DNA from: Amia ocellicauda
Taxonomy: Eukaryota; Chordata; Actinopteri; Amiiformes; Amiidae
Length of the DNA stretch: 64,000 nt
Direction of reading: 5' to 3'
NCBI RefSeq assembly: GCF_036373705.1
Contig: NC_089851.1
Coordinates: forward strand, 558,001-622,000
In this document: in pieces, positions 9,194 to 59,843 of the stretch
Position numbering within the stretch: position 1 is the first letter of the stretch
Layout: each line of letters starts with the position of its first letter
The notes under the pieces: generated by a model
Told to the model about the DNA's origin: nothing
Seen by the model: only the letters and a program-made list of their open reading frames with translations
Database searches by the model: none
Translations under genes and position numbers: made by a program

Positions 9194-11547
9194 GTGATGC
9201 ATGGTGATGCCCGCCCCAGTGTCCTGACCCACGGCCTGCGCCATCTGCGCCACCTGCCCTGCGGCCCTCGGCATGTGGCTTGCAGGGGGGGCAGCTTTGT
9301 GGTGCTGGATGCCAGTGGGTGTGTACAGCTGTTCCACCCTGATGGTCGCCTGTACTGTGCCCTCCCCGCCCCCGCTGGGGCCACGGGGCTGACCCCCACA
9401 GCGCTGCCCGGGTGCCTGGCCGTCTGGGGCCCCGAGCTTGGCCTCGTCCTGCTGGATGCCGAACTGCGACCCCTGCGCAGCCCCGAGCCCTGTGCCCCGG
9501 ACGTGCGCGCCTGCCTGGCTGCGGAGGACGCCCTGGTGACCGCGGGCGCGGGGAACGTGAGTGTATGGACTCTGCGCCAGCTGCGGTGCCGAGCGCGGGT
9601 CACCCAGGGCCTGGGGCCCCGGGACGTGTTCACACTGCTGGCGCTGACACCCCTCGGCGCCCCCACACCCCCCCGCGCTTTCGCAGCCGGCGGGACGGCG
9701 GTGGTCGTGGTGGACCTATCTGAGGGCCGGCTGCTGCAGCACAGGAGGGACCTGCACCTCAGGTGTGTGTCTTTCCAACGCTGATATTGTTATTTTTCAT
9801 AGTATTTATTTCCTATTATTTAGTAATTGTGTGTGTGTGTGTGCAGGGAGATCACGGCACTGGCATACTGCCCCCTGCTGGACGGACTGGCCACTGCATC
9901 CTGCGATGGGGTGATCAAGGTGTGGGGGCCAGACTGGGGGCTTCGGCTCGTGTTCATCGGACACACTGGTAAGAACCCAGCTACACTGTCTGTGTGTGTG
10001 TGTGTGAACCTGTCTGTGTGTGAACCTGTCTCTGTGTACCTGTGTGTGTCCCTGTGCTCAGGTGCAGTGACCGGGCTGGCGGTCTGTCTGCAGTCCGGGC
10101 TGCTGCTGTCCTGCTCTCTGGACGGGACGCTGCGCCTCTGGAGCCTGCAGGGGGGGGACGAGGTGCAGTCGCTGCGGGCGGGGCAGGGGGCGCCGCTGGG
10201 GCTGGGGGGGGGTGCCGGACACGCCTTCCTCTCCCACTCGCAGTGTGGGCTGGACTTCTGGGCGCTGACCAGCCTGTACTGCCTGCACTGCCGGCTGGGG
10301 GGGGGCGGCCCCGTGCGTCAGATCTGTGCGCCCCGCTGCCCCCCCGAGTTCCCCCCCCGCGCCCTGTGCCTCTGCGGGAGCGGCAGCCTCACCCTGGTCG
10401 GTTTGGAGACAGGGGAGGTCCTCAGCAGTCTCCGTCTGGAGGCGGGGCAGCGGGCCCGGGGGGTGGAGTACTGCCTGCCCCTGGAGACACTGCTGGTGCT
10501 GACGGAGGAGGGGGCGGTGCTCCGGGCCAGCACGCTGACCAATCCGGCCACGGCTCTGCCCGAGTGGCGGGGGGAGGGAGTGGAGCCCTGGCGCGAGGTG
10601 CTGGGGGCCGATCCCCTGACCCGCCCAGGCCCCGCCCGCTGCCTGGGGGTGTACAGCCACACTGCGGACCCCCAGAGGGCGCTCTCTCACTGGAGGGAGC
10701 TGCATGAGCGCCGGGGCAGGGCGCCCTCCAGGAGGAGGCCAGCGGCACAACAGGGGGACACGAACAGGTGGGCCCCCCGCTGTCCCTCTGTATGGGTTCT
10801 CTGTCTCTCCTCCTCTCTGTCTCTCGCTCTGTCTGTCTGTCTGTCTGTCTCTATGTTACAGAGAGGTGGTGTACCTGTGTGTATCTGATTGTGTACCTGT
10901 GTGTTTGCCAGGTTCCTGGTGGTGGTGGGTCAGGAGGGGGGGGTTCTGTCTGTGCTGGACTGGCAGACGGGTGAAGTGCAGTACCAGAGCCGAGCACACA
11001 GCGGCCACACCGTCACCGCCCTGCAGGCCAGCCCAGAGACCGGCCAGCTGCTGTCCACAGGTACCTCCCACAGCCCTGCCGTGCAAGTGTGTCAGTGTGT
11101 CAGTGCTGCGGTGTGTCAGTGTCAGGGTGTCAGAGTGTCAGTGTGCCTGCACAGGTGCGGACAGGGCAGTGTTAGTGTGTCAGTGTGTCAGTGTGTGGGT
11201 GCCTGCGCAGGTGCAGACAGCTTGGTGCTGGTGTGTCAGTGTGTCAGTGTGTCGGTGTGTCGGTGCCTGCGCAGGTGCAGACAGCACGGTGCTGGTGTGG
11301 CGCGTGTTCCCCAACGCGCAGGAGAGTCTGAGTCTGCAGCTGCATCTGAGCTGTGGCCACTGCCCCCTGTTCTGCGCCACCCTGGGGCCCCTGCTGGGCC
11401 TCGCCTTCCAGGAGCCACACAGCGCCACCTACAGCCTGACACACATCTCCCTGGCCAGCCTGCAGCGCTCGGACCACCCGCCTGGACACGACCCCCGGGA
11501 CGCCATCACAGGTGAGACTGACACAAGCACACACACACTCACAGAGA

Positions 11548-11593
<46 letters not shown>

Positions 11594-14279
11594 CACAGAG
11601 ACACACACAGAGAAACAAATGTACAAACACACAAACACCAGGGTGACATGTGACTAGGTCATACTCCAACTCCAAATTAAAGTTGTTTCTGTGTGTGTGT
11701 GTGTGTTGTGTGTGTGTGTACAGGGCTGTGCTCCTGTCCTCAGTTGAGGGTGTTTGCCTCCAGCAGTCGGGATGGGACTGTCCAGCTCTGGGACGAGGAG
11801 AACCAGCTGCTCAGGTCAGGGATCACTGTCTCAGTGTGTGTGTCTCTGCAGGGCCCTGTGTCTCAGTACGTGTGTCTCAGTGTGTGTGTCTCTGCCGGGC
11901 CCTGTGTTTCAGTGTGTGTGTCTCTGCAGGGCCCTGTGTCTCAGTGCGTGTGTCTCAGTGTGTGTGTCTCTGCAGGACCCTGTGTCTCAGTGTGTGTGTC
12001 TCTGCAGGGCCCTGTGTTTCAGTGTGTGTGTCTCAGTGCGTGTGTCTCAGTGTGTGTGTCTCTGCAGGACCCTGTGTCTCAGTGTGTGTGTCTCTGCAGG
12101 GCCCTGTGTCTCAGTGTGTGTGTCCCTGCAGGACCCTGTGTCTCAGTGCGTGTGTCTCAGTGTGTGTGTCTCTGCAGGACCCTGTGTCTCAGTGTGTGTG
12201 TCTCTGCAGGGCCCTGTGTTTCAGTGTGTGTGTCTCTGCAGGGCCCTGTGTCTCAGTGTGTGTGTCTCTGCAGGGCCCTGTGTTTCAGTGTGTGTGTCTC
12301 TGCAGGGCCCTGTGTCTCAGTGCGTGTGTCTCTGCAGGGCCCTGTGTCTCAGTGCGTGTGTCTCAGTGTGTGTGTCTCTGCAGGGCTCTGTGTTTCAGTG
12401 CGTGTGTCTCAGTGTGTGCGTCTCTGCAGGGCCCTGTGTCTCAGTGTGTGTGTCTCTGCAGGACCCTGTGTCTCAGTGCGTGTGTCTCAGTGTGTGTGTC
12501 TCTGCAGGGCCTTGTGTCTCAGTGTGTGTGTCTCTGCAGGGCCCTGTGTCTCAGTGTGTGTGTCTCTGCAGGGCCCTGTGTCTCAGAGTGTGTGTCTCTG
12601 CAGGACCCTGTGTCTCAGTGCGTGTGTCTCAGTGTGTATGTCTCTGCAGGACCCTGTGTCTCAGTGCGTGTGTCTCAGTGTGTGTGTCTCTGCAGGGCCC
12701 TGTGTCTCAGTGTGTGTGTCTCTGCAGGACCCTGTGTCTCAGTACGTGTGTCTCAGAGTGTGTGTCTCTGCAGGGCCCTGTGTCTCAGTGTGTGTGTCTC
12801 TGCAGGACCCTGTGTCTCAGTGCTGAGCCGCAGTGCGTGGCGTTCTGTGGACAGCAGGGGGATCTGTTGGTGGGGATCCAGGGGGATCTGTTCAGGATCC
12901 AGTGCACCTTCCTGCTGCCCCATCACTACCAGCTCCAGGTGCAGCCTCTCTGACCGGGGCCACACTGAGGGCCCAGTCTGGGCCTGTACTATAATTTACT
13001 GCACTTTACTATACTGTACTGTACTATAGTACATTATACTATACTGTACTATACTACACTATACTGTTCTACACTCCATTATTCTATACTATAGTCCAAA
13101 CAGAGCTGTGTGTGTGTGCGTGTGTCGCAGTGTGTGTGTGTGTCGCAGTGTGTGAGTGTGTGCGTGTGTGTGTGTGTGTGCGTGTCGCAGTGTGTGTGTG
13201 TGTGTATGTGTGTCGCATTGTGTGAGTGTGTGTACACACAGAGCACACAGTACTACAACAGAAACGACACGTACAGACAGTGACTCTGTGCCCATGTGCT
13301 CAGGACCACCAGGACCACCAGGACCACCAGGACCACCAGGACCAACGGGACTACCAGGACCAACGGGACCACCAGGACCACCGGGCCCTGGCAGCGCGGG
13401 ACAGGGACCTGGCGCTGCTCCGGCAGGGGGGGATAGTGAGCAGGAGGCAGCTGCAGCCCAGCCGGCACACCAAGAGAGAGGCCTTCAGACACTACCTGCA
13501 GCTCCTGCGCAGGGACGCGCCTGGCCTGCAGGTCACTGACGCTCTGACACTCTGACACTGTGACACACTGACACGCCCGGGCTGCAGGTCACTGACGCTC
13601 TGACATATAGACTGACACACTGTTTAATTTACTGACTGACACACTATAACCCCCTCTCCAGATTCCAGAGGACAATGTGTCTGACCTGCAGGAGGCGCTG
13701 TGCCCCCCCGACACCCAGCCCCTACTCACACCCACGATGGAGCGGGGGGGCTTCTTCCCTGACCCCGCCTTGGCCAGGCCTCTGAGTCAAAGATCACCGG
13801 CGTCTGAGCAGGTTGTGTCTGTGTGTGTGTGTGTTACTCTCAGTGTCTGTGTGTGTGTGTGTGTGTGTGTTACTCTCAGTGTCTGTGTGTGTGTGTTACT
13901 CTCAGTGTCTGTGTGTGTGTGTGTGTTACTCAGTGTCTATGTGTGTGTGTGTGTGTGTTACTCTCAGTGTGTCTGTGTTTGTTACTCTCAGTGTCTGTGT
14001 GTGTGTGTGTGTCTGTGTGTGTGTGTTACTCTCAGTGTCTCTGTGTGTGTGTGTCTGTGTGTGTGTTACTCTCAGTGTCTATGTGTGTACAGGTGGCAGG
14101 CCCAGCCCAGGTGGGGGTGAAGGGCTCGATCCCCAACTCAGTGGTGGCTGGACAGCTGTGGCCCCCAGAGCAGCTGGACCGCAGTCAGGGGGGTGCAGTC
14201 TGGAGGGGCCCCTGCCTGCCCGACAGCCCCCTGCCGGTCAGCACTGTGGTGGAGGGGGAGGCGGTGAGTGGGGGGTATA

Positions 14280-14318
<39 letters not shown>

Positions 14319-20251: not shown

Positions 20252-20287
<36 letters not shown>

Positions 20288-22944: not shown

Positions 22945-22970
22945 GAGCCCTGGAGCTTTACATTTCACTC

Positions 22971-22976
22971 AATAAA
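22971..22976 (+). terminator. Polyadenylation signal of WDR97
   Basis: AATAAA lies 27 bp after the TGA at 22942-22944, giving a very short 3' UTR. Transcription converges with LRRC14-like. Confidence 0.85.
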
Positions 22977-23319
22977 GGCATCAAATAATGACAATGACAA
23001 TATGAAGAGTCTGTCGTTTCACACCAGGGGCCCTGCCTGTGTCTGCCCCCCACCCCTCTCAGAGAGAACAGGCACTGCTACACTGTCAGAAACACAGACT
23101 CCCCCCCACCCCACCCCACCTCACCCCACCTTTCACACAAACATTTGCTTTTCATGTTTAAAAAGTGTCGTTATCACATGCAGAGCCCACAGTCACTGTG
23201 ACCCCGAGACGAGCAAGACATAGAACAAAACTCAAATATACTCATACATAACAAATCATTTATAAATGATACCAAACACACAGCCCTGTGAGACGAGTCA
23301 GATTTACTGCCAGAAGCAG

Positions 23320-23575
23320 GGCCAAGACCCTGCTGGACTGGACTGTGTCTCGCGGGACCAGGGCTGAGACCCTTCTGGGCTGAGACCCTTCTGGACTGAG
23401 ACCCCGCTGGACTGGACTGTGTCTCGCGGGACCAGGGCTGAGACCCTTCTGGACTGAGACCCTGCTGGACTGGACTGTGTCTCTCAGGACCAGGGCTGAG
23501 ACCCTGCTGGACTGGACTGTGTCTCTCAGGACCAGGGCTAAGACCCTGCTGGACTGGACTGGACTGGACCAGGAC
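23320..23575. repeat. Minisatellite downstream of LRRC14-like
   Basis: About 5 copies of CTGGACTGGACTGTGTCTCG..GGACCAGGGCTGAGACC, with 'cttctgg' and 'ctgctgg' variants. It lies in the intergenic or 3' UTR stretch of the minus-strand gene. Confidence 0.9.
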
Positions 23576-23730
23576 GAGGCTTGAGAGTTGACCAGCTGTG
23601 GAAGGAAAGAGGCTGGACAGTCCCTCAGACAGGCGAGGATCAGGCCTGGCAGAGATGGTGCTGGCCCTGCTTTGGGGACGAGTCTCTCCGTGGTCCCCGA
23701 GCTCCGTCTGGGCAGATTAACCCCCCGCCC

Positions 23731-25729: not shown

Positions 25730-25879
25730 CAGCACCGCACCACTGCACTGCGGGAGAGAGAGGGAGGAGGGAGGAGAGTGTGAAGCAGCTCACAGCTCTG
25801 TGGCAGCAGCTCTTCCAGGAGCAGGAAGTGATGCTCAGGGATGCCTGTGAGCTGCGAGTACCAGCACTGCAGACACGCT

Positions 25880-26187
25880 GACTGACGTGTACACAGCCCT
25901 GTGTGTGTGTGTGTGTGTGTGTGTACAGGTTTTCGTGATATATGGGGACTCTTTTTTTTGTTACAAACTGGTAATTAGTAAGTTATTATGCTTATTATTA
26001 TTAACTGTGAAATGTGGGGACTTTGTCTAGAGTCCTCATGAGTCAAATCGCTTAAAAAACATACTAAATTATGTTTTAATGAAAATGTAAAAATGCAGAA
26101 AGTTTTTTATGAGGGTTAGGGATAGGGGATAAAATCTAGAGTTTGTACAGTATAAAAATGGAGAGTCCTCATAATGATAGCAGGACC

Positions 26188-26245
<58 letters not shown>
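25880..26245. repeat. Dispersed GGGGACTCT repeat ending in (GT)n, copy 1
   Basis: Contains TTAAAAAACATACTAAATTA, TTTATGAGGGTTAGGG and AGTCCTCATAATGATAGCAG, then (GT)n at 26193-26245. A reverse-complement copy is at 27160-27400. Confidence 0.8.
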
Positions 26246-26248
<3 letters not shown>

Positions 26249-28847: not shown

Positions 28848-28889
<42 letters not shown>

Positions 28890-33598: not shown

Positions 33599-36500
33599 AC
33601 TGTGCACGCCGCTCCGCCCATGCCAGCCTGGCCCCGCCCCCGCACCCCCCGCCACCGTCTCATAGTAGCCCCAGCCCTCGCCTCCGAAAGACACGTTGTT
33701 CATGCAGCCCTGAGAGGGGGGGGGGGGGGGGAATATTCGGATGCAGATGTTAATGTGTAAAATGTATCATTTCTGTATCTGTTGTTTTAACTGCCCTGTT
33801 CTTGAGCAGCACTAGATCAGTCGCCAAGACAGCTTTTTAATGAACTGGATTGTAAACCATATTTCAGATGCTGTTGTCAGGCAGATGGACAGACAGACAC
33901 AGAGACACACATACCCATACCCTAACCTAGGACAGACACACACACTTACAGTGACTTACAGTTGTCAAAGCTTCACAATACGCACTGTATAACATTGCAC
34001 AGTAACAATCACAGCGCACACCGACCCCCGCTCACCTGCGACGCAGCGCAGACCCCGAAGGCTCTCAGGATGACGTCCACCACTCTCTGTGACGTCAGCA
34101 CGTTCCCGCCCACCACCGCGGCCTCCGGGGACGGGTGCAGGATGGAGCCGGGCGGCAGCAGCACCGACACTGGGGCCAGACAGCCCTGCGACACAACACA
34201 CAGTCACACAACATGATCACACGATACTGTGGCACAACACACACAGTCACACAACATACACTGTCACAACACACACGGTGACACACAGAGTGCCTCGCTG
34301 GGTCAGACCTGGTTGAGGGGGATGTCTTGGCCCACCATGCAGCGCAGGCAGTAGATGAGGGCGGACAGAGTGATGGCTCTGGGTGCGTTGCAGTTCCCCC
34401 ACACCTCCGGCCCCGTGCCCCCGAAATCAAACACCGCGCTGCCCTGAGGAGAGAGAGGCCGGGGAGGAGGCGAAGAGAGAGGCAGAAGAAGAGAGAGGCG
34501 GGGAGAGAGTGAGTTTGCTGCTCTTTCCTCGGGCATGGAGACCTGTGAGCAGCTGTGTCTGCGTCCCTCCCTCCCTGCAGTTCAATCTCTCACTCACTCA
34601 CTCTCTTGCACACTCTCATCCGATCACTCCCGCTCTCTCACCGCCCTGCTCCCGCTCACCTCCTGCTCGTCGATCTGGACGCACAGTCTGATTGGCGTGC
34701 CATCGTCCATGTGGTCCTCTGCCTGCACCTGCAGGTAGCCCGTCTGCTGCCGGCGGCGACGAGCGAACTCCTTCAGCATGTCCCTGACGGCCAGCTCGGC
34801 GTTACTCTGGAGAACAGACAGGGCGACACTGCACTGTACTGCACACACTGTACTGTACTGCACACACACTGTACTGCACAGCACTGCGCACACACTGCAC
34901 TGTACCGCACACACACTGTACTGTACCACACACACACCGTACTTGCACTGCAATGTACTGCACACACTGTACTGTACACACCGCACTGCACTGTACAAAC
35001 ACTGTACTGTATTACATGCACTGCACACACTTGACTGTACTATACTGCACTTCACACACTGCACTGTACACACTGTACCGCACACACTGCACTGTACACA
35101 AACTGTACTGCACGCACTGCACTGTGCACACACAGCACACGCACTGCACTGTACAAACTTGACTGTACTGTACTGCACTGTACACACACTGTACTGCACA
35201 CACTGCACTGTACTGCACGCACTGGACTGTACTGCACACTGTACTGTACACACACTGCACTACTGCACGCACTGGACTGTACTGCACACACAGCACTGTA
35301 CACACACTGCACTGTACACACTCTGCACTGTACCGCACGCACTGCAATGTACTGCGCACACACTACACTGTACTGCATTGTACTGGACACACCCTCCTCT
35401 CTCTCACCTGTATATAGCCCATGTAAGCCTGAACCACCTCCAGACCATAGCTGTCAATCAGCTCCCCCACCAGCTGGCTCCCTCTCCGATTGGCTGCCAC
35501 TTGCGCCCGCAGGTCCGAGAGGTTGTCCTGGAGATTGCGAGTCCCTGAGCACCCTGGGTACTGGGCAGGAGCCATGAGCGCCGCCGTCACCGCTGAGGGA
35601 GAGACAGACAGGGGGCAACTCAGAGACAGAGAGTCAGACGAGGTGAGAGAGACAGAGACAGAGAGACAGACTGAGAAATGGACACAGAGACAGAGACAGA
35701 CAGACAGACACAGACAAGAGAGAGAAATAGAGACACAAAGACACACAGATAGACAGACACACACTCTCCCTGTCCCCTCACCCTCCTCCTGAAACTGCCC
35801 CCCGGTGACCAGTCTGAAGGAGGTGAAGACGGCCCCCTCCTGCCGCAGCGAGGTGGAGTGGGGGGGCATCGAGCCTGGCGTGACCCCCCCGATGTCGGCA
35901 TGGTGACCCCTGCTGGCCACGAAGAACACGGGACCGGCGACCCCCGGCCTGAACACCTGCGCGAAAGAGGAGTTAACTCGCTGTCCGTCTCAGAGTTTGT
36001 CTCTCTCTGCATTGCTGGTCTGACTTTCGGCCTCTCCCTCCCCACTCCTCACACAGCGTCCCGCACACACTCCTCTCACTCCCCCTCTCTCACTCCGCTC
36101 CCCGCTCTCACCGGGGTGATGACGGTGAGGTCGGGCAGGTGGCTGCCCCCCGCGGAGGGGTGATTACTGAGGATCACGTCCCCCTCCCTCAGAGACGCCC
36201 CCAGGGCACGCAGCTGCACAGGGAGACAGGGAGAGAGGGAGAGAGACAGGATTAATTAAACAGAGGGTGTCAGGGTGTCAGGGTGTTACCTAGTACTGCA
36301 CAGTCTCCTGCACGGCGCCCAGGTGCACAGTCTGTCAGTGTGTCAGGGTGTCAGTGTGTTACCTGGTACTGCACAGTCTCCTGCACGGCGCCCAGGTGCA
36401 CAGTCTGTCAGTGTGTCAGGGTGTCAGTGTGTTACCTGGTACTGCACGGTCTCCTGCATGGCGCCCAGGTGCACAGGGATGTGCGGTGCGTTGGACACAA

Positions 36501-39500
36501 GCCCCCCATCCGGCCCGAACACGGCGCACGAGAAGTCCAGACGCTCCTTGATGTTGGTGGATATGGAGGTCCGCTGCAGCACCCGGCCCATCTGCTCTGA
36601 ACACACACACACACACTGAACACACACAACACCAACACAGGTCCGCTGCAGCACCCGGCCCATGTGCTCTGAACACACACACACACTGAACACACACTCA
36701 CACACAACCAACACAACCCAGGCTGTAGCATCTGGCCCATCTGGTATGAACACACACACACTGAACACCAACACACACACAGACTTAAAACACTCACACT
36801 GCACTAACCAGCGATACTCATGAATCGATGGGAGAAGATGGACAGCTGCACACTGTCCAGACGCGTGTCCAGTGCCCATGGCGCCCCGGAGCCCACACTC
36901 AACCTCACAGCGCCCCCCGCTGTCAGCTCGGCCTCACAGCCCGGCTCCACCAGCACCGTGCTGCACAGAGCGGGGGGTAGAGTTAGATCACAGTCAGTCA
37001 GTCAGTGTGAATCAGTCAGTGTGTATCAGTCAGTCAGTCAATCAGTGTATCAGTCAGTCAGTGTGTCAGTCAGTGCTTTACTGTGTCAGCGTGTCAGTCA
37101 CTGAGACCTGTTCTTGTCGATGATGAGCGCTGGCCCTGTGATGTTGTGGTCATATGACAGGTCCTCCAGCAGGTACACATTGGTATCCAGGTAACCACTG
37201 TCAAAGTAACACTGTGTCACCTGCGTAACAGGACAAAGGAGACTGTGTCACACACACACACTCTGTCACTCATACACACTGACTACACACACACACACAC
37301 ACACACACACTGTCACACTCTTGCTCCTCAGTGCTGTACCGTGGTGACCCTGGGCGGCCCCTGCTTGTTTGGGGTCATGTTCTGGGTCGTGACCCCTGAC
37401 CTCCCACAACCTCTGACCCGGATGTCATCCACCACTATGGGGCGCTCCGGGATAGTGAAGCCAAACTCCTTCAGATACCTGAGAGAGAGGACAGAGAGAG
37501 AGGGAGAGACAGAGAGAGGGAGCGGGAGTTCATTAATTAATGAAAGTCTTAAATGTATATTTAGGTCAGCGGGTCAGTGGGCGGTACGGGTCAGTGGGTA
37601 GTACCGGTCCATGAAGGCGCTGCGGAAGTCTCCGGCGTGGCAGGACTGGGCACTGCTGGGGTAGCCGCGGGCGGAGACCATGAGGGCGCAGTCCGTGCGG
37701 TCGTAGCGCAGGTGCAGGAACACCTCGCAGCTCACCTGCGCACTGAGAGACCGGGCGAGAGGGAGAGATAGGGTCAGCGTGCACTGCACGTGTGGTTGGC
37801 GTGCTCTTGTCGTGTGCTCAGCATGTGCTGGTGCTGACCTGCTGAAGCCGTGCTTGCGCAGCGCGTCCATGCAGCGCTGTGTGAGCTGCTCAATGCGCTC
37901 GTCCAGCCGGGCGAAGGACTGCGTCTCGTAGCGACACGCACACGGCTCCTGCGCCTCCTCCACCACGTCCGCCAGCGCCAGCCCATAGGCAGACAGAACG
38001 CCACTGTACCTGAGAGAGAGGCAGAAGAAAGAGAGAAGCTCCATACTGTGCACTCACAAAAACCCCAAGCCATTCCCGCCTCTTACTTGTGAATGAGGAC
38101 AGTCTTCATGCCCAGAGCCCGTGCGATGGCACACGCGTGCTGCCCCCCCGCTCCTCCAAAACATGCCAACACGTGACGAGACGTGTCGTGGCCCTTCGCC
38201 TGCGGACACAGTAAACACATGACAAACAAGTCACATTGCTTCATAACACTCACACTCCGAGGAACTGGAGGAGGAAGGAAGAGAGGGAGAGAGGGAAGGA
38301 GGGAGGGAAAAGGAATGGATGAAAGGAATACAGAATACAGAGTGAGGGGAAGAGGGGAACGCTAGAGAGAGGAGAATGGGCAGATAGGGGAAATGGAGAG
38401 AGATAGAAAGAGGGAAGGAAACGAGAGAGAATGGAGAGGATCGGAATAGGAGAGGAGAATGGACAGAACAGAGAGGGAGAGAGATGGAGACGGAGGGAGG
38501 AGGAGAGGAGGAGGGAGAGAGAGAGGGGCGGACTGGTGGCACCTGCGTGAGCGCTCTGATTGGGCGGCACATGGCCTCGTTGGCCACCCTGATGAAGCCC
38601 ATGGCCACCTCTTCCACACTCATCCCCCCCGTGGCGCCGCTCTGTGGTTGGCCAGCGTTAATGCGGGCGGTGAGGGCGGAGAGCTGCCGTAGGCTCTCCT
38701 CGCGGCACAGCGGCTCGTCCTCGCCTGGCCCGAACACGTGCGGGAAGAAGGAGGGCAGTAGCCGGCCCAGCGCCAGGTTGGCGTCTGTCACGGTGAGGGG
38801 TCCCCCTGCAGGCACGCTTACCGTTACGACAGGAGAGACAATCCTGAACTGGACACACGAACTCCACACACACACACCTCGATCTGATCAAGGCAGTCAG
38901 CATCGCCTGTCTCACGTGGGTGGAGCGGTGCATTGTGGGATTGCAAGGGGTTCCGGTGGCGAATGTTTCCATATCTATACGATGTGAAACCTGCTTAATT
39001 TCATATTCAGAGCTCACTCTTGCAAAACCCTTTGCATCTTTAAACACAATGCTCACGAAGCCGGAGGCTAGCGACAGCACCTGAAACGGCTCGCTGAAAC
39101 AAATACATGTAAGGAGGGGCGTCTCTAAACCACTGTGGTGCATTGTGTGGTGCAACTGTGTTTTTAAAAGAGAAGACTTTTAATCCCATAATCCCACAAT
39201 GCACCTCTTCCTCAAAGACCAAAGAAAAGTGTGAGTTGACGATCTTGTTTAGATAGAGGGTGTTCGCACTTTCTGACACACACAGTGCCCCCTGCAGGCT
39301 GTGAGGACAAAGCACACAATCTGACTGTTACTACATCAGCAAAGCTACCGAGCTACAGATACACAGATACTACACGCAAGTCAAGGACCTGTAGTAGTCT
39401 GACTCACACACAGACACACGCACTCACTCTTGGCTGCTTGTTTCCCATCGCTCCCCCATTCACACTGGCTTTGAATGCCAGAACAATGCTGGGAGCTCCC

Positions 39501-42500: not shown

Positions 42501-45500
42501 CCGCCAGCGCCCCCACCGCCTCCTCGTGGACAGACCACCTGACCCAGGGGAGAGAGGGAGAGAGTTGCGTATAATTATGGCATCCTGTATAGCAGCGGTC
42601 CCCAACCTTTTTTGCACCACGGACCGGTCTCATATATGCAATATTTTCCCGGACCGGCTGTCCAGGGGGGTGTCGGTGTCGTAAAAACTTTTCAACCATG
42701 TCGCTGTCATTGCGGAAATACAATGCTTTTGTGGCTATCTCGGGATATTCAGCCTTGATTTTAATCCGAAAGAAAAAAAAAAAAAATTATTGTTGGGGTA
42801 AAATTGCTTTCCAGTAAGTTACTAGTTAAAACTTGCTCTTATAAGGGTTTCCTTGTTCTTATTAGGATTTCTCTGCTCAGACTTATCTGTGCGGCAGATA
42901 GAGATAATTTCTACTGCCGTGGACATTCTGTAGTCAACGAACCAAAACTATATAACCTGTTCTTATCAGTATAGTGTGTGCTTTGTCCTTGGTACCAGTG
43001 CTTCCATGTCTGGATGAAATATTGTTTCCCCAATTAGAAAGAATACCTTATGAATTATTGCTTCCTGTGTTTCAGAACTGCCCCGGACATATGCCAAGAA
43101 AATATCATCCAGGTTCGGGACGGCCCTGAACCTCCTTTGAAATATTGCTTGTAGATGTATAAAAGGCTGTGTGAAACTTTCAATAAACGAAGATAAACGA
43201 ACAGACATTGTCAGTGACTTTACTTCCCGGGCCTGTCTCCTGCTGAGAGTCTACACTGTTACTGGAAGCGCTCACTGGGGTGCCTGATTCACTGGGACCC
43301 GAAGGGTTGCTTCAACTGAAGCTTTGTACCTTAACAATTATTTATCCTTTCCGTGCGGCCTGGTAGCGAATGTGCCGTGGATATATAGAGTTTCTGTTCC
43401 CGTTAGTTAGTTAGTCGATTGATTGAGTGATTGATTGAGTGAATGCGCACAGATTCCCGGTTCGTGCATCTCTGTACACGCTCTGGACTGGGGCAAGAGC
43501 GGCACTCTGTACTCGTCAAAGCACAGGTAATGGGTTTGTTCTCTTCATTTCTATAAATAAACAGCTAAACTGCAGATTGTTTGACGTGTGGACATATTTC
43601 AGCCTCGCCTCCAAAATATAAAGGTGCAAAAACACGACGGTGCATGGTGTACGGTGCCATAGCTTGTGTTCACCTGGAAACTCCTACATCAGGGCTGGGA
43701 TGTGTGTCTGTGAAGCAACGATATGTTTGAGTCCAAATCTGCCTGATTTCATGGAGATTTTCAGCTGTGTGTTTGACATTTCAGGTCTTCAATTTTCAAA
43801 ATCTTCTGGGGGACCCCTAGACCCCCACCCTCAATTCCTCAATCCTCTGGTCTCATTTCGCAACATTCATTTTGAACAGTGGACAGTGATGGAGGGAAGT
43901 GGTACAGACTTGAATCCAATAAGACACAAAATGCACGAAGTTTCTATTATGTTTATCTATATGACTACAATAATCTTTAACACATTAAGTCTGAAAGTGC
44001 TTTAATACTTATATTTACATGTATGTAAATGTTTTATTTTTGTACTTTGTCAAATGAATGTACTAAATATAAGCAACGGGGTAAATTACTAATGCACAGA
44101 CTGTGTGTGTCGGAAAGGTGCATGTGGAGGTGTGACTCCCCCTGGAGTCTGGATCCTGACTCTACCTCGACCAAGAAGTGTGGACCCTGACACAAAATAA
44201 CTGACGAGCCCTGCCGCAGCGGCACGGAAAGGGACGGGGAGAGATGGAGAGCATGAGCGAGGGGTGAACGGCAGGGTGGTGTCTGGCACTGACATGCAGG
44301 AGTGCAGAGAGAGAGGGATGAGAGGAGGAGTGTGGTCACACTGACGTGTAGGAGTGCAGCAGCAGCACGGCCAGGCTGGTGATCCCACGCGACAGCACAC
44401 CCCGCAGGTCGGCCTCCACTTGCACCAGATCCACAGACCGCCACACACTCACTGCCTCGCCTGTACTGCCTGGGGGGGAGCAGGTGAGGGGAGATATAGG
44501 TGAAAGAAAGCAGAGGAGAGACAGAGAGGAGAGAGAGGAGAGAGTGTGAGATATTCAGAGTAACAGTGCATGAAGTCATATACCTGAGTGTGTCAGTTCC
44601 TGTGTCAGTATCTGTGTAAAGATTTCAGTACCTGTGTCAGTACTTGTGTCAGTACCTGTGTAAAGATTTCAGTACCTGTGTAAAGATTTCAGTACCTGTG
44701 TCAGTACTTGTGTCAGTACGTCAGTACCTGTGTCAGTACTTGTGTCAGTACCTGTGTAAAGATTTCAGTACCTGTGTCAGTACCTGTGTAAAGATTTCAG
44801 TACCTGTGTCAGTACCTGTGTAAAGATTTCAGTACCTGTGTCAGTACTTGTGTCAGTACGTCAGTACCTGTGTAACGATTTCAGTACCTGTGTCAGTACT
44901 TGTGTCAGTACCTGTGTAAAGATTTCAGTACCTGTGTAAAGATTTCAGTACCTGTGTCAGTACGTCACTACCTGTGTCAGTACTTGTGTCAGTACCTGTG
45001 TAAAGATTTCAGTACCTGTGTCAGTACCTGTGTAAAGATTTCAGTACCTGTGTAAAGATTTCAGTACCTGTGTCAGTACGTCACTACCTGTGTCAGTACT
45101 TGTGTCAGTACCTGTGTAAAGATTTCAGTACCTGTGTCAGTACCTGTGTAAAGATTTCAGTACCTGTGTCAGTACGTCACTACCTGTGTCAGTACTTGTG
45201 TCAGTACCTGTGTAAAGATTTCAGTACCTGTGTCAGTACCTGTGTAAAGATTTCAGTACCTGTGTAAAGATTTCAGTACCTGTGTCAGTACCTGTGTAAA
45301 GATTTCAGTACCTGTGTCAGTACTTGTGTCAGTACGTCAGTACCTGTGTAACGATTTCAGTACCTGTGTCAGTACTTGTGTCAGTACCTGTGTAAAGATT
45401 TCAGTACCTGTGTAAAGATTTCAGTACCTGTGTCAGTACTTGTGTCAGTACGTCAGTACCTGTGTCAGTACTTGTGTCAGTACCTGTGTAAAGATTTCAG

Positions 45501-47624
45501 TACCTGTGTCAGTACTTGTGTCAGTACGTCAGTACCTGTGTAACGATTTCAGTACCTGTGTCAGTACTTGTGTCAGTACCTGTGTAAAGATTTCAGTACC
45601 TGTGTAAAGATTTCAGTACCTGTGTCAGTACGTCACTACCTGTGTCAGTACTTGTGTCAGTACCTGTGTAAAGATTTCAGTACCTGTGTCAGTACCTGTG
45701 TAAAGATTTCAGTACCTGTGTAAAGATTTCAGTACCTGTGTCAGTACGTCACTACCTGTGTCAGTACTTGTGTCAGTACCTGTGTAAAGATTTCAGTACC
45801 TGTGTCAGTACCTGTGTAAAGATTTCAGTACCTGTGTCAGTACGTCACTACCTGTGTCAGTACTTGTGTCAGTACCTGTGTAAAGATTTCAGTACCTGTG
45901 TCAGTACCTGTGTAAAGATTTCAGTACCTGTGTCAGTACCTGTGTAAAGATTTCAGTACCTGTGTCAGTACTTGTGTCAGTACGTCAGTACCTGTGTAAC
46001 GATTTCAGTACCTGTGTCAGTACTTGTGTCAGTACCTGTGTAAAGATTTCAGTACCTGTGTAAAGATTTCAGTACCTGTGTCAGTACTTGTGTCAGTACG
46101 TCAGTACCTGTGTCAGTACTTGTGTCAGTACCTGTGTCAGTACCTGTGTAAAGATTTCAGTACCTGTGTCAGTACTTGTGTCAGTACGTCAGTACCTGTG
46201 TAACGATTTCAGTACCTGTGTCAGTACGTCAGTACCTGTGTAACGATTTCAGTACCTGTGTCAGTACTTGTGTCAGTACCTGTGTAAAGATTTCAGTACC
46301 TGTGTCAGTACCTGTGTCAGTACCTGTGTAAAGATTTCAGTACCTGTGTCAGTACCTGTGTAAAGATTTCAGTACCTGTGTCAGTACTTGTGTCAGTACG
46401 TCAGTTCCTGTGTCAGTACTTGTGTCAGTACCTGTGTAAAGATTTCAGTACCTGTGTCAGTACCTGTGTAAAGATTTCAGTACCTGTGTCAGTACTTGTG
46501 TCAGTACGTCAGTACCTGTGTAACGATTTCAGTACCTGTGTCAGTACGTCAGTACCTGTGTAACGATTTCAGTACCTGTGTCAGTACTTGTGTCAGTACC
46601 TGTGTAAAGATTTCAGTACCTGTGTCAGTACCTGTGTCAGTACCTGTGTAAAGATTTCAGTACCTGTGTCAGTACCTGTGTAAAGATTTGAGTACCTGTG
46701 TCAGTACCTGTGTAAAGATTTCAGTACCTGTGTCAGTACCTGTGTCAGTACGTCAGTACCTGTGTAAAGATTTCAGTACCTGTGTTATTGCGTCAGCATC
46801 TCAGTACCTGTGTCAGTGTGTATGTACCTGTGTCAGTGCGTCAGTACCTATGTGAGTGCTCTCTGTGTCTCGTGGGGGCAGCTGGCAGCCATCTTGTTTG
46901 AGCACCACCCTCTCGTCCACCTCGATCACCTCATCATACAGCAGCTCGGGCATCCTCACCTCCTGCACAACACACACAGTGTGTCAGAGTGACCGTCTGT
47001 ACATCAGTGTGTCAATATATCAGTATGTTTGTCAGTCTGTCAGGGTGTCAGTGTGTCTGTCAGTCAGTGTGTCAGTGTATCAGTCAGTGTGTCAGTGTGT
47101 CAAGCACTGCACTGACCAGGTCGAACAGCAGGGGCCGAGCCTGGGTGCCGATGTGCAGCAGGTCCTTGAAGCCGCGGGTGACGAGCAGGGCTGACCGGGC
47201 CCCCTGGCGCTCCAGCAGTGCGTTGGTCGCCACCGTGGTACCCATGCGGATCCAGCCAATCAGAGAGGGATCCAGGGGCTCTTCCCGGGGGAAGACTCGC
47301 CCAGTCTCCTGGAGAGGGAGGGAGGGTGAGACAGACAGACAGACTGAATTTGATATTACAATCGCCAGAGACTGGAAAGCGCACACTGCACTGAAGAGAC
47401 GCCAGAAAGACACAGACAGACAGGAGGACTGATACAGGCCCCTCTCTCCACACCTGTTCCAGTATCCTGCGGATCCCCTCGGTGGGCGCGTCCCTGTAAT
47501 GCTGGGGGTCGTGCGACAGCAGCTTGAGCACGCGCTCCGCCCCCCCCGGGCATTGGGCGAACACGTCGGTGAAGGTGCCCCCCCGGTCGATCGCAAAGTC
47601 AAACTTCCCCTCGGAGCCGGGCAT
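32377..47624 (-). CDS. oplah: OPLAH, ATP-dependent 5-oxoprolinase
   Basis: Twenty-six coding exons, minus strand: 47624-47454, 47308-47117, 46962-46848, 44469-44346, 42538-42343, 42054-41889, 41603-41465, 41303-41236, 38805-38543, 38199-38087, 38009-37839, 37742-37605, 37478-37340, 37220-37108, 36960-36809, 36596-36436, 36213-36112, 35956-35782, 35592-35408, 34806-34660, 34443-34309, 34185-34036, 33709-33552, 33452-33292, 33011-32914, 32532-32377. Total 3888 nt, 1295 aa (human 1288), all phases consistent. The HyuA-like half has [49 protein letters not shown] and the [18 protein letters not shown] loop. The HyuB-like half has [49 protein letters not shown] and [14 protein letters not shown]. 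The enzyme hydrolyses 5-oxo-L-proline to glutamate in the cytosolic glutathione cycle. Large introns hold mobile elements and a 2.2-kb array. Confidence 0.97.
32640..32912. repeat. GTTCAGTGTGTCAGTGTTTG minisatellite in the last OPLAH intron
   Basis: About 10 copies of a 20-35 bp unit (TTTGTGGTTCAGTGTGTCAGTGTCTCAG) run up to the donor of the exon ending at 32914. Confidence 0.92.
33715..33733. other. G-run in an OPLAH intron
   Basis: An uninterrupted run of about 18 G on the plus strand, next to the polypyrimidine tract of the exon beginning at 33709. A G-quadruplex is possible on plus; on the sense strand it is a C-run before the acceptor. Confidence 0.8.
34820..35390. repeat. CACTGTACTGCACAC low-complexity array in an OPLAH intron
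   Basis: About 40 irregular ACTGTACTGCACACACTGC-like units fill the intron between exons 34806 and 35408. ORFs here are Cys/Val/Thr-rich artefacts. Confidence 0.93.
36284..36475 (-). repeat. Triplicated exon end plus donor of OPLAH exon 36596-36436
   Basis: On minus, the sequence CACCTGGGCGCC-(A/G)TGCAGGAGAC-(C/T)GTGCAGTACCAG|GTAACAC occurs at the real donor (36436) and again 73 and 146 bp further into the intron. The period is 73 bp: about 37 bp of exon 3' end plus intron. The outermost copy reads TACTAG rather than TACCAG, but keeps GTAAC. Confidence 0.95.
36565..36755 (-). repeat. Extra copies of the acceptor of the same OPLAH exon
   Basis: On minus, TGTGTTCAG|AGCA(G/C)ATGGGCCGGGTGCTGCAG is present at the real acceptor (36597/36596) and as a close copy at 36640-36673. 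A more diverged copy lies at 36720-36752 (TGTGTTCAT|ACCAGATGGGCC). About 30 exon bases are duplicated each time, with (CA)n spacers. Confidence 0.92.
38260..38525. repeat. GA-rich tract in an OPLAH intron
   Basis: Purine-rich (GAGAGGGA)n sequence on plus forms a long polypyrimidine stretch on the sense strand, between exons 38543 and 38199. Confidence 0.85.
39755..40700 (+). mobile_element. Tc1-like transposon 3' end, interrupted
   Basis: 39790-40001 translates to the end of a Tc1 transposase: [20 protein letters not shown], then [15 protein letters not shown] and [14 protein letters not shown] before a stop. The 3' non-coding part continues to 40153, is interrupted by the hairpin element, and resumes at 40597 with TTTGAAATCCATTGTGGTGG and AAATGATGACAATTGTG..ATTTATGGACCTAAC, typical of Tc1 3' ends. 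It lies in an OPLAH intron. Confidence 0.85.
40160..40590. mobile_element. 431-bp hairpin (foldback) MITE nested in the Tc1 relic
   Basis: Two arms of about 200 bp are reverse complements around a centre near 40370 (loop GCCTGCAGGCGAGCGTGTCA region). The arm ends are TATGGGTTTAAATTAGCGCC at 40160 and its partner GGCACTTATTTGAGCCCATA ending at 40590. A 6-bp direct repeat GTTTCC flanks it (40154-40159 and 40591-40596), consistent with a target-site duplication. It has no coding capacity. Confidence 0.85.
42592..43400. mobile_element. hAT-like relic split by an LTR insertion
   Basis: AGCGGTCCCCAACCTTTTTT and CACGGACCGGTCTC at the left, and CTTTCCGTGCGGCCTGGTAG at the right, are the two ends of the widespread 'GGTCCCCAACC..CCACGGACCGG' DNA-transposon family. 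I place it as hAT-like from memory of that consensus. The two parts are separated by the solo LTR. Confidence 0.6.
42791..43336 (+). mobile_element. Solo LTR, 546 bp, with 5-bp target-site duplication
   Basis: Begins TGTTGGGGTAAAATTG and ends CCTTAACA (TG..CA). It is flanked by ATTAT on both sides (42786-42790 and 43337-43341). It has a TATA box TATAAAAG at 43158-43165 and AATAAA at 43182-43187, in the order expected of an LTR promoter and poly(A) site. No internal retroviral or gypsy sequence is present. The superfamily is not assignable from the LTR alone. Confidence 0.82.
43345..44080. other. OPLAH intron without recognised genes
   Basis: Beyond the hAT/LTR composite, 43440-44080 is unique-looking AT-richer sequence with no ORF that I can assign. 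Confidence 0.6.
44585..46847 (-). repeat. 2.2-kb array built on the donor of OPLAH exon 46962-46848
   Basis: On minus, the exon ends CACATAG|GTACTGACGCACTGACACAG|GTACATAC. The intron then consists of about 100 modules of two kinds: the 12-mer GTACTGACACAG and the 20-mer GTACTGAAATCTTTACACAG (with AAATCGTTACACAG and ACGTACTG variants). Almost every module boundary is CACAG|GTACTG, a donor-like sequence matching the true site. The exon length (115 nt) and phase confirm the true donor at 46848. Larger blocks of about 130-260 bp recur. Confidence 0.93.
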
Positions 47625-54171: not shown

Positions 54172-54364
54172 GGGGGGGCAGGGCGGCCAGGAGGTCACAT
54201 GATTGACTGCACAGGGGGGAGGAACAGAGTGTTATTTTTGTAAGCGTGTCTGTAACTGTAACTACACTTTACATGTCTAATAAACGACACAGTTCACACC
54301 CTGCGCTGTCTGTCCATCTTGTGAGCCTGTGTGTACCTGTCCAAACAGTGTGCAATCAAGAGGA

Positions 54365-54975
54365 GCCCATTCGCCCCATCGTGCTCGTTTGGTGTCCATT
54401 AATAACTGAGTGATCAAGGATCCTATCCAGTCTGTTTTTGAATGTTCCCAAATTGTCTCTTCAGCCACATCGCTGGGGAGTTTGTCCAGATTGTGACGCC
54501 TCTCTGTGTGAAGAAGTGTCTCCTGTTTTCTGTCTTGAATGCCTTGAAGCCCAATTTCCATTTGTGTCCCGGGTGCGTGTGTCCCTGCTGATCTGGAAAA
54601 GCTCCTCTGGTTTGATGTGGTCGATGCCTTTCATGATTTTGAAGACTTGCATTAAGTCCCCACGTAGTCTCCTCTGTTCCAGGGTGAAAAGGTTCAGTTC
54701 CTCAGTCTCTCAGTAGGACTTTCCCTTCAGACCTGGAATAAGTCTGGTTGCTCTCCTCTGAACTGCCTCTAGAGCAGCGATATCTTTCTTGAAGTGTGGA
54801 GCCCAGAACTGTCCACAGTATCCAGATGAGCTCTAACTAGTGCATTGTACAGTCTGAACATCACTGCCCTTGTTCTCAATTCTACACTTTTGACAATATA
54901 CCCTAGCATTGTGTTTGCCTTTTTTATTGCTTCCCCACATTGTTTGGATGGAGAAAGTGTCTGTCCGTCTGGCTT
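54365..54975 (-). mobile_element. 5'-truncated CR1-like LINE, copy 2
   Basis: Near-identical in most stretches to 20620-21220: minus-strand [37 protein letters not shown] and the C-terminal [10 protein letters not shown] region. It is truncated at its 5' side at about 54958. It sits between EXOSC4 and GPAA1 and begins about 80 bp after the EXOSC4 poly(A) signal. Confidence 0.9.
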
Positions 54976-55546: not shown

Positions 55547-58519
55547 ATGGGTCTGCTGTCTGACCCCAACCGCAGGAGAGCCCTAACCAGCCTGCTGACC
55601 CGGCTCAACACACCCCTCTGGTCAGTTTGACACACCTGCCTGCCTGTATGCACCTGTCCACAGCGCACCTGCCTGTAACTCCTCTCTCTCTCTCCGTGGC
55701 AGTGTGCTGTGTTACGTGGCGGGCGTGGCGTGGTTCATGGGCCTGGCCTTCGCGCCGTTCTCGCTGCGCTGCTACATGTCGGAGAACGCCATGGGCTCCA
55801 CCATGGTGGAGGAGCGCTTCTCCACGGGCGAGCGGGCGCTGGGCGCGGCCAGGGAGTTCGCTGCCCAGAAGAAGAAGGCCGGGTCAGTCCACAGCAGGGC
55901 CAGTCTGCCCAGTCTGCCTCCCGCCTCCCTCACACACTCACTGTGTGTGTGTTGCTGTATCAGAGTGTGCATGTCAATCTCTCTTGCATACTCAACTCTG
56001 TCCATCCCTCTGTATACAGACTCTGGAGTAACAGCCTGGTGACTTTGGGTCTGTCTCTTTCTGTCCCTTCCCTTCTTCCTCCATCCTCTGTCTGCACCCC
56101 TCTCTCTCCCTCCCCGCTCCCTCTCTCTCTCGCAGAGGGATGCCGGTGCAGTGGCTGGTGCAGGCAATGCAGAGCCGGGGGCTGGAGGTTTACACACAGA
56201 GCTTCTCGCGCATGCTGCCCTTCCCTGACGAGAGCAAGGAGAGATACGTGAGTGACTGTACCGACAAGCTGTACTGCACACACTACACACTGTACTGACA
56301 CTGTACTGCACACTAACTCATAATTAAGCGTGTCTTTTCCCTCCCTCTGTGTCTACCTGTCAGATGGTGCATGGCACTAATGTCTACGGTATCCTGCGTG
56401 CCCCCCGCGCTCCGCGCACAGAGTCTCTTGTGCTCAGTGCCCCCTGCAGCCCAGATGGCGCCAACAACCAGGCCGTGGGGCTGCTACTGGCCCTGGCCCA
56501 GTACTTCAAGGGTGAGCGAGAAACGTCTGTTTGTCTCTGTGTGTGTGTGTGAGTGAGGTCGGGGCAGGTGTACTGTGTGTGTTCCGTAGTGTGTGTGTGT
56601 GTTCAGGGCAGGTGTACTGCCTCTGTTCAGTAGTGTGTGTCTGTCTTCAGGGCAGGTGTACTGGGCGAAGGACCTGATCTTCCTGGTGAACGAGCACGAC
56701 CTCATCGGCATGCAGGCCTGGCTGGAGGGCTACCATGACGTCAACACCACCGGTAAGCAGGGGCCGGGTGTGCGTTAATGTGCTCACTGTGTTACTCTGT
56801 GTGTATGGATGCACTGTGCTGTGTGTTACTCCGTGTGTATGGATGCACTGTGCTGTGTGTTACTCCGTATGTATTGACGCACTGTGCTGTGTGTTACTCC
56901 GTGTGTATGGATGCACTGTGCTGTGTGTTACTCCGTGTGTATGGATGCACTGTGCTGTGTGTTACTCCGTGTGTATTGACGCACTGTGCTGTGTGTTACT
57001 CCGTGTGTATTGACGCACTGTGCTGTGTGTTACTCCGTGTGTATTGACGCACTGTGCTGTGTGTTACTCCGTGTGTATGGATGCACTGTGCTGTGTGTTA
57101 CTCCGTGTGTATTGACGCACTGTGCTGTGTGTTACTCCGTGTGTATTGACGCACTGTGCTGTGTGTTACTCCGTGTGTATTGACGCACTGTGCTGTGTGT
57201 TACTCCGTGTGTATGGATGCACTGTGCTGTGTGTTACTCTGTGTGTATGGATGTGCTGTGCTGTGTGTATTGACACACTGTGCTGTGCTGTCTGCTCAGG
57301 CATCAGTGCGTCGCCCCTGCAGGGCCGGGGGGGCTCAATCCAGGCGGCGCTGTCTCTGGAGCTCAGCAGTGATGTCATCACCAGCCTGGACCTGGTGCTG
57401 GAGGGGCTGAACGGTCAGCTGCCCAACCTGGACCTGGCCAACCTGTTCCACGCCTTCTGCCAGAAGACCAACATCCTGTGCACCATACAGGGCAAGGTAC
57501 CGGTCACCGCCACATAGAGAACAAGGCACCGGTCACCGCACCGTACAGGGCAAGGTACCGGTCACCGCCAAATAGAGAACAAGGCACCGGTCACCGCACC
57601 GTACAGGGCAAGGTACCGGTCACTGCCGCTTAGAGAACAAGGCACCGGTCACCGTACTGTACAGGGCAAGGTACCGGTCACTGCCGTATAGAGAACAAGG
57701 CACCGGTCACCGTACTGTACAGGGCAAGGTACTGGTCACTGCCGCGTAGAGAACAAGGCACCGGTCACCGTACTGTACAGGGCAAGGTACCGGTCACTGC
57801 CGTATAGAGAACAAGGCACCGGTCACCGTACTGTACAGGGCAAGGTACTGGTCACTGCCGCGTAGAGAACAAGGCACCGGTCACCGTACTGTACAGGGCA
57901 AGGTACCGGTCACTGCCGTATAGAGAACAAGGCACCGGTCACCGTACTGTACAGGGCAAGGTACTGGTCACTGCCGCGTAGAGAACAAGGCACCGGTCAC
58001 CGCACCGTACAGGCAAAGGTCACCGCCGTGTAGAGAACAAGGTACCAGTCACCGTACTGTACAGGGCAAGGCACCGCTCACCACACCGTACAGGGCAATC
58101 TGGCAGCATCGCGACTGTCCTGTGCTCTGTGCTCTGCATGCAGCTCCAGCGCAGTGACTGGGACACAGTGTCTGGCTACACACACTCGGTGCAGACCATG
58201 CTGCTGATGGTGCTGCGCCAGGCCAGCGGGCGCTCCTGGGGGGACCACGGCCTGTTCCTGCGCTACCACATCGAGGCTGCCACGCTGCGCGGCATCAACA
58301 GCTTCCGCCAGTACAAGACCGACATCACCACGCTGGGCAAGTATGTATCCGCGCACTGGGAGGGGCATGTCTGTCTGTGTGTGTGCAGTATCCCAGTGTC
58401 TGTGTGTGTGTGTGTAGTATCCCAGTGTCTGTGTGTGTGTGTAGTATCCCAGTGTCTGTGTGTGTGTGTGTGTGCGCAGTATCCCAGTGTCTGTGTGTGT
58501 GTGTGTGCGCAGTATCCCA

Positions 58520-58565
<46 letters not shown>

Positions 58566-59843
58566 TCCCCAGTGTGTGTGTGTGTGTGTGTGCGCAGTAT
58601 CCCAGTGTCTGTGTGTGTCCCAGGCTGCTGGAGGGGATGTTTCGGAAGCTCAACAACCTGCTCGAGCGGCTGCACCAGTCCTACTTCTTCTACCTGATGC
58701 CCTCGCTGTCGCGCTTCGTCTCCATCGGCTACTACATGCCTGCCTTCAGCCTGCTGGTGCTCATCCTGCTGCTGCGCGTATCCTGAGGGAGAGGGAGGGA
58801 GGGAGGGAGGGAGGAGGAGTAGTAAGTGTCCCAGTGTGCCAGTCCTTAACACTGCTCTAGGCTCTGGACCTGTGGGTGCAGCTCAGTGACCCGTCTACAG
58901 CCCTGGAGGACTGCGCCACGGAGGGAGAAGAGGTCAGTCTGTCCCTCGGTGTGTCTGCTGTGGAATCGCTGATCTCAGTGTTCAGTGGATGGGTGTCAGT
59001 CTGTCTGTCTGTTATTGTGGAGCAGAGCGGGCTGCAGTGACTGCCTGTCCCTCTCCCCCAGGTGTCCAGTCCCGGCCTGCTGTCCCTGCTGACCCCGGTG
59101 CTGATCAGTCACCTGACGGGCGTGGCGCTGTACACACTGCCCGTGCTCTCCCAGCATGCCGCGGTGCAGCACTTCCCCGTGTCGGAGACCGAGGCTGTGA
59201 CCCTGACCGCCGTGGCCATCTACACCGCTGGCCTGGCCCTGCCGCACAACACACACAGGTACACAACGCTGCCGCACAACGCGCACAAGTACACAACGCT
59301 GCCGCACAACACCGTGACGCGTCTCTGTATGTCCCTCTCTCCGCCGCAGGGTGCTGTCCGGTGCGGGGACGGAGCGCGGCTGGCGGGTGCTGAAGCTGCT
59401 GTCCCTGCTGTACCTGTCCGCCCTGCTGGGCTGCACCGCACTGCTCAACTTCTCGCTGGGCTTCATCCTGGCGCTGACGCTGGTGCCCGTCACGGCCTTC
59501 ATCACGCCTCACGCGCCCAGGTAACGCACCGGCCACGTCGGCTCGCTCACGTGTCTGCCCACGCCGACGCACTTTCACGCGCCGACGCTCTCCCTGCAGG
59601 CTGCTGAGCGCCGGGGCGATGGTGCTGCTCAGCCCGGCCATCACGCTGCTGCTGTGCGTGTTCCTGTACCAGGAGCTGCAGGAGGCGCCTGTGTCGCCGC
59701 TGGAGGGCTGGGCACTGTTCCTGTCCGCCATTTCACAGGGCATCCTGGACCACCACCTGTACGGCTCGCTGCTCTACCCCCTCGTCGCGCTGCTCGTCTT
59801 CCCCTGCTGGCTGCAGGTCTGGAACATCCTCTTCTGGAAGTGA
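55547..59843 (+). CDS. gpaa1: GPAA1, GPI transamidase subunit
   Basis: Twelve exons: 55547-55620, 55703-55882, 56136-56247, 56364-56511, 56651-56752, 57300-57496, 58144-58340, 58624-58777, 58861-58932, 59062-59258, 59350-59520, 59600-59843. Total 1848 nt, 615 aa (human 621), all phases consistent. It starts [20 protein letters not shown]. Exon 2 carries the first membrane segment ([15 protein letters not shown]) and [15 protein letters not shown]. The luminal part has [45 protein letters not shown] and [14 protein letters not shown]. At least six hydrophobic segments follow; it ends VWNILFWK. It is an ER-membrane metallopeptidase-like subunit of the complex that attaches GPI anchors. Tail-to-tail with the RBCK1-like gene. 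Confidence 0.98.
56560..56664 (+). repeat. Triplicated acceptor of GPAA1 exon 56651
   Basis: TTCAG|GGCAGGTGTACTG marks the real exon start (56651). The same exon bases recur at 56605-56618 preceded by GTTCAG, and at 56562-56575 preceded by GTCGG. Spacing is about 43-46 bp. Confidence 0.9.
56785..57290. repeat. 34-bp minisatellite in GPAA1 intron 5
   Basis: About 15 copies of CACTGTGCTGTGTGTTACTC followed by CGTGTGTAT and GGATG or TGACG. No exon sequence is recognised in this unit. Confidence 0.95.
57478..58100 (+). repeat. 58-bp VNTR made of the GPAA1 exon-6 end and donor
   Basis: The exon ends CATACAGGGCAAG|GTACCGGTCACCGCC. The intron then repeats GTACAGGGCAAG|GTACCGGTCAC..GAGAACAAG|GCACCGGTCAC about 10 times to within about 45 bp of the next acceptor. 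Each copy keeps at least 11 exon bases and a usable GT donor. The unit is itself a dimer of two related 29-mers. Confidence 0.95.
58365..58622. repeat. (GT)n-GCAGTATCCCAGTGTCT array in GPAA1 intron 7
   Basis: Seven copies of (GT)n followed by GTATCCCAGTGTCTGTGTG, with the acceptor TGTGTCCCAG|GCTGCTGG directly after the last one. The shared TCCCAG may derive from the acceptor, but no exon bases are copied. Confidence 0.9.
59229..59320 (+). repeat. Triplicated exon end plus donor of GPAA1 exon 10
   Basis: CTGCCGCACAACACACACAG|GTACACAACG at the real donor (59258) is followed 30 bp later by CTGCCGCACAACGCGCACAAG|TACACAACG, and then by CTGCCGCACAACACC. The second copy would splice less well, since the G at the junction is shifted. 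Confidence 0.9.

Follow-up and report, generated by a model that had tools for sequence, protein, structure and literature searches.

Cryptic splice sites and new introns are known to arise when a tandem duplication crosses a splice junction. NAGNAG and GYRGYR tandem splice sites are separated by a few bases, and as a rule no exon sequence is copied with them; Reed and Maniatis reportedly duplicated a splice site together with a short piece of exon beside the authentic site. In later constructs of that type, engineered beta-globin RNAs with a doubled 3′ splice site whose proximal copy carried 14, 55 or 205 exon bases, splicing went exclusively to the distal site (PMC5389562). Human duplicated genes carry minisatellites with units averaging 30 bp, some of them at exon-intron boundaries (PMC2812944), and gains of introns through tandem duplication have been documented (PMC3443670; PMC2891723).

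The locus described here lies in a 64,000-nucleotide stretch of bowfin (Amia ocellicauda) DNA, referred to as the window. Like the human internal tandem repeats (PMC2812944), it has minisatellites at exon-intron boundaries; the human repeats give rise to alternative transcripts and to putative new introns in recent paralogs, whereas the bowfin genes have gar orthologues and give no sign of a new intron. The cases assigned to the Rogers model (PMC3443670, PMC2891723; see also PMC4974935) share with bowfin the tandem duplication of coding sequence carrying AG/GT, but they create an intron inside an exon, whereas in bowfin an existing intron is lengthened. As with NAGNAG and GYRGYR sites (mentioned in PMC2891723), splice sites are closely repeated at one edge; the spacing is a few bases in the former, whereas the bowfin units are 30-73 bp and include copied exon. 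Constructs of the Reed and Maniatis type consist of engineered beta-globin RNA (PMC5389562), whereas the bowfin duplicates are natural and reach 24 CTGCAG|G copies for an acceptor and 109 candidates for a donor. On present evidence, the bowfin arrays are a further example of boundary-spanning minisatellites rather than of intron gain. A literature search aimed at bowfin retrieved, judging by titles and abstracts, no work on exon-edge copying.

Gene models and repeat content of the window

Gene models were obtained by fitting gar and bowfin proteins to the window with a spliced aligner. Spliced protein alignment gave 18 exons for WDR97 (plus strand, after trimming by hand), 26 for OPLAH (minus strand) and 12 for GPAA1 (plus strand), and EXOSC4 (plus strand, 3 exons) was modelled on an eel protein; together these four genes comprise 55 introns with 110 exon edges. 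Human GPAA1 and OPLAH have 12 and 26 coding exons, respectively. MAF1 (minus strand, 6 exons), a fifth gene in the block, was modelled on a human sequence, of which residues 1-235 of 256 were matched. The modelled set is confined to coding exons of these five genes, with WDR97 taken from its second exon onwards. From the 23 WDR97 pieces returned by the aligner, four weak ones (4297-4335, 13104-13147, 13191-13287 and 17713-17729) were removed, two were merged (19252-19488) and the ends of three exons were adjusted by hand; because of this handling, some of the WDR97 edges are placed with less confidence than the OPLAH and GPAA1 ones.

The OPLAH draft protein was 100% identical to an Amia calva protein over 92%, 99% identical to A. 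ocellicauda isoform X3 over 61%, and 82% identical to that of spotted gar. At the single OPLAH residue compared between both bowfin records, the window agreed with A. ocellicauda; in GPAA1 it differed from the A. calva record at two residues. The A. calva, A. ocellicauda and gar proteins all yielded the same junctions at the three OPLAH repeat edges. Away from these edges, each bowfin OPLAH record deviated from the gar model, and the A. calva GPAA1 record lacked 20 residues at a place distant from the repeat edges. In the A. ocellicauda isoform X3 record, exons 41465-41603 and 38543-38805 are left out and exon 41236-41303 is translated in a different frame. No bowfin WDR97 protein record was present among the 41 matches listed. 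Searches for RNA families (at the gathering score) and for tRNAs found none. A PDB search with one OPLAH exon gave no match, two MAF1 exons matched a MAF1 structure, and a Pfam scan of ten other reading frames gave two Maf1 matches and eight frames without a match.

Tandem repeats of period at least 10 occupied 27% of the window, whereas 14 other 10-kb stretches of this genome averaged about 3.3% (range 0-24%), roughly an eightfold difference in density; the comparison stretches were taken at one fixed position on each of 14 contigs, and a 2-kb stretch (L001, no repeats) was excluded from the mean. MAF1 sits in a repeat-poor part (4.6% in 20001-30000). In the four main genes, such repeats made up 33% of intron bases versus 3.9% of exon bases, and 32 of the 55 introns were shorter than 250 bases. 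A 4.8-kb GT-rich minisatellite at 4336-9182 approaches the WDR97 acceptor at 9194 from upstream and ends shortly before the junction. By eye, 54300-54900 and 20600-21600 appear to be two copies of one dispersed repeat, possibly a retroelement tail.

Exon ends copied into adjacent introns

For each of the 110 edges of the four main genes, the outermost 40 bases of the exon were aligned to the neighbouring intron, and the match was set against those in 200 draws of equal length from the other introns, the lowest attainable p being 0.005. This floor was reached by 9 edges, and p≤0.05 by 15, whereas in a control using exon interiors (exons of at least 130 bases) the floor was reached by 1 of 81 and p≤0.05 by 3 of 81. 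In MAF1, with its model from the human sequence, none of 10 edges reached the floor and one had p=0.035. The initial annotation had listed nine repeats whose unit contains an exon boundary; eight of them coincided with floor edges, four acceptors and four donors with about 13-41 exon bases copied, and the test thus demonstrates copies there, whereas the listed OPLAH repeat at 44585-46847 was not significant. The confirmed edges are the WDR97 acceptors 11275 and 12806 and donor 13531, the OPLAH acceptor 36596 and donor 36436, and the GPAA1 acceptor 56651 and donors 57496 and 59258; they belong to eight different introns, with one edge each. Exon bases are copied together with splice sites in both gene orientations, as annotated, and the duplicated splice sites are tolerated. 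Head-to-tail copies of a unit composed of exon bases plus junction, as in a minisatellite, were present at 8 of the 110 edges. The remaining floor edge, the WDR97 acceptor of intron 20249-21735, was rejected, its 10-base match lying off the junction.

The best-scoring periods of the confirmed arrays were 30-73 bp (32, 78 or 266 for that at 11827-12823); of the range previously given (12-76 bp, 2 to about 100 copies), the 12-bp period and the some 100 copies belong to the unconfirmed OPLAH array. In WDR97, the acceptor array at 11097..11299 (period 56-64) contains exon-like copies from 11155 and 11211, sharing 25 bases with the exon that starts at 11275, and that at 11827..12823 contains 24 CTGCAG|G sites upstream of the exon start at 12806, with about 17 exon bases per unit and periods of 32, 46, 78 and 266. 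The WDR97 donor is present in two copies at 13518..13587, the exon end being at 13531 and the copy end at 13587 (spacing 56), with 12 of 14 exon bases identical; this duplication was missed by Tandem Repeats Finder. The WDR97 exon from about 13304 opens inside a 9-bp repeat, CAGGACCAC, of about nine copies (13301-13382), the units of which offer additional in-frame CAG acceptors.

On the minus strand, two arrays lie at the two edges of one OPLAH exon. That at 36567..36799 repeats the exon start at 36596 in two copies, one at 36668 that matches 29 of 30 exon bases and has an intact AG and one at 36745 that matches 21 of 30 and has lost the AG, and that at 36267..36476 (period 73) repeats about 41 bases of the exon end at 36436 in copies ending at 36363 and 36290. 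In GPAA1, the acceptor array at 56545..56663 (period 44) carries copies of the exon start at 56651 at 56607 (AG intact) and 56563 (AG lost), with 13 exon bases copied exactly. The GPAA1 donor array at 57480..58099 (period 58; exon end 57496) holds 12 matches of 71-94% to the 17-base exon edge, 9 of them with GT, and that at 59239..59318 (period 30; exon end 59258) holds copies of 20 exon bases ending at 59288 (GT kept, weaker) and 59318 (GT lost). The statement that the true site is always the one closest to the exon body is correct, though dictated by geometry, since use of any other copy would place intron in the mRNA.

Among residues wholly or partly encoded by the copied exon parts, 56 of 64 match gar. 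At WDR97 13531, which is poorly conserved, 1 of 5 matches; at the seven other edges, 55 of 59 do. At most sites the exon edge is therefore old, with the intronic copies derived from it, and copying from exon to intron is demonstrated for these sites; the reverse, a repeat invading the exon, was rejected as disfavoured by gar conservation at seven of the eight edges. In the GPAA1 intron 57497-58143, one edge variant absent from the exon is common to 7 of the 12 matches, as expected if the edge was captured once and the copies were then amplified inside the intron.

Probable random duplication and its alternatives

It is likely that the eight arrays are ordinary short tandem duplications, that is, minisatellite births, whose breakpoints by chance flanked exon-intron junctions. 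A single event, probably slippage or unequal exchange, would double a segment made of an exon end and the adjoining intron start, or the converse at an acceptor; the copy attached to the body of the exon would stay functional, and the extra one would become intron, drift and possibly amplify. Such duplications would be harmless because the full exon retains its own splice site. Their clustering would follow from the extreme tandem-repeat content of the block and from its mostly short introns, in which a 30-75 bp unit often straddles an edge.

Under a random-breakpoint model, in which the seed unit was placed randomly in reconstructed pre-expansion intron lengths, the number of arrays spanning an edge was close to the chance expectation in most settings, P being the probability of at least the observed number. 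Thirty-one arrays occupied 29 of the 55 introns, and 8 of them spanned an edge versus 10.4 expected with the best period (P 0.93) or 6.4 with the smallest (P 0.24). With 52 arrays, obtained at a lower score cutoff of 30, 9 spanned versus 10.5 (P 0.84) or 5.8 (P 0.035), and with 22 arrays of period at least 20, 8 spanned versus 10.4 (P 0.93) or 7.5 (P 0.49). Over the six settings, 8-9 spanning arrays were thus found versus 5.8-10.5 expected, with P=0.035 in one and 0.24-0.93 elsewhere. The count of 8 includes the OPLAH array at 44589-46859 and omits that at WDR97 13532, uncalled by Tandem Repeats Finder. An earlier run of eight settings, with arrays imperfectly merged, gave P from 0.002 to 0.96, two settings having 0.002 and 0.03.

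The initial annotation had proposed a common mutational process acting on exon edges, and such targeting could operate through short homologies that seed duplications, supplied by CAG|GT where an exon ends and by introns that start GT-rich. The proposal would be consistent with the occurrence of eight real cases within about 50 kb, with one OPLAH exon being hit at both edges, and with the nominal excess seen under one of the six settings and under two of the eight in the cruder run. We nevertheless regard it as unlikely: 29.6% of random intronic positions lay at least 8 bases inside an array versus 8 of 110 edges (7.3%), a fourfold depletion of the kind expected when exons are protected, and the copies extend about 13-41 exon bases instead of ending near the junction (a reach of at least 8 being required for counting). 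Within the window, array overlap at edges is hence not above what repeat density predicts, an outcome that the annotation itself had named, for a genome-wide scan, as refuting the idea, and with five of six settings free of excess and edges depleted in arrays, no edge-specific process is demonstrated. As a rate, about 7% of edges are affected in this repeat-rich region.

That the duplicate sites are functional, providing extra isoforms or a splicing buffer, appears improbable. In its favour, the WDR97 decoy acceptor at −120 and the OPLAH one at −72 keep the frame and are stop-free, adding 40 and 24 amino acids, respectively, the latter with a score equal to that of the true site, and in WDR97 intron 11815-12805, 9 of 24 decoy acceptors keep the frame without a stop. 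But 12 of 13 intact decoy donors outside the giant OPLAH array introduce a stop codon, the exception being the GPAA1 donor at +30, which would add 10 residues, and within that array 108 of the 109 AG|GTA decoys introduce a stop and one shifts the frame. Moreover, two bowfin OPLAH records and the A. calva GPAA1 record, whose support is unstated, use the true sites at the repeat edges. Functional decoys are likewise disfavoured by the fate of the splice dinucleotides, which are lost at about the same rate as other bases: in the seven smaller arrays, GT or AG was demonstrably retained in 17 of 23 copies, and the mean copy identity of about 0.85 predicts some 16.5, a rough figure in which copies below 70% are uncounted. 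There is no evident excess loss of decoy splice dinucleotides relative to other bases.

An assembly artefact is very improbable, even though tandem arrays are hard to assemble, as the copies have mostly diverged from the exon, with site means of 0.80-0.89 identity at all confirmed sites but GPAA1 56651, as misassembly would not be expected to give single copies changes of their own, and as in three arrays the nearer copy matches the exon better than the farther one. Scarcely credible is a Rogers-type gain, a route mentioned in the annotation, with the introns themselves born by tandem duplication of AGGT-containing exon sequence, against which stand the restriction of copies to a single edge in all eight introns, introns that exceed the unit length and so are not one duplicated unit, coding exon counts of GPAA1 and OPLAH equal to the human ones, and a protein that is continuous with, and unchanged relative to, that of gar across the copied stretches. 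Although the donor-side units contain AG|GT and the model is established (PMC3443670), nothing points to intron gain in these genes, to judge from the DNA and its encoded proteins.

Duplicate splice sites and the choice of the true site

The arrays are useful as natural splicing tests rather than as a new mechanism: with several independent cases within one block, conserved genes already contain substrates with duplicated splice sites, and what is of interest is the way in which splicing disregards such a number of duplicates. Every intact duplicate at the eight edges is nearer to the partner site than is the site used. It may be that the site joined to the complete exon outcompetes copies bearing only about 13-41 exon bases, presumably through exon context, or alternatively that rare decoy use is destroyed or tolerated. 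The engineered beta-globin RNA (PMC5389562) offers a precedent for passing over a nearer decoy in favour of the body-joined site.

The largest set of decoys is that of the OPLAH intron 44470-46847. The array at 44589..46859 (minus strand), adjoining the donor at 46848, contains 109 CAG|GTA sites, 100 of which are CAGGTACTG, so that decoy donors are present in it. Exon copying at 44585-46847 is not supported, with p at least 0.084 in the edge test and a place outside the 22 best edges listed; the best sharing found by eye, between exon CACTCACATAG and CACTGACACAG, is 9 of 11 bases, and Tandem Repeats Finder carries the array 12 bases into the exon. Splice sites were scored with human base frequencies applied to bowfin, and on this scale 109 GT sites in the intron score at least as high as its weak true donor, whereas the median intron has no such decoy. 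Of the 110 candidate donors, the true one is nearest to the exon, and the other 109 are all closer to the acceptor.

It is possible, though doubtful, that OPLAH and the eight edges prove, in nature, the dominance of exon context over both splice-site strength and intron proximity. If this were true, the OPLAH array would be a graded natural titration of splice-site choice, with copy number varying between individuals; its 109 candidate donors would directly test exon context against site strength plus proximity. A GT-rich array makes up nearly all of WDR97 intron 13812-14092, coming within 3-4 bases of both splice sites with no exon copied, and 46 GT sites in it score at least as high as the intron's own weak true donor.
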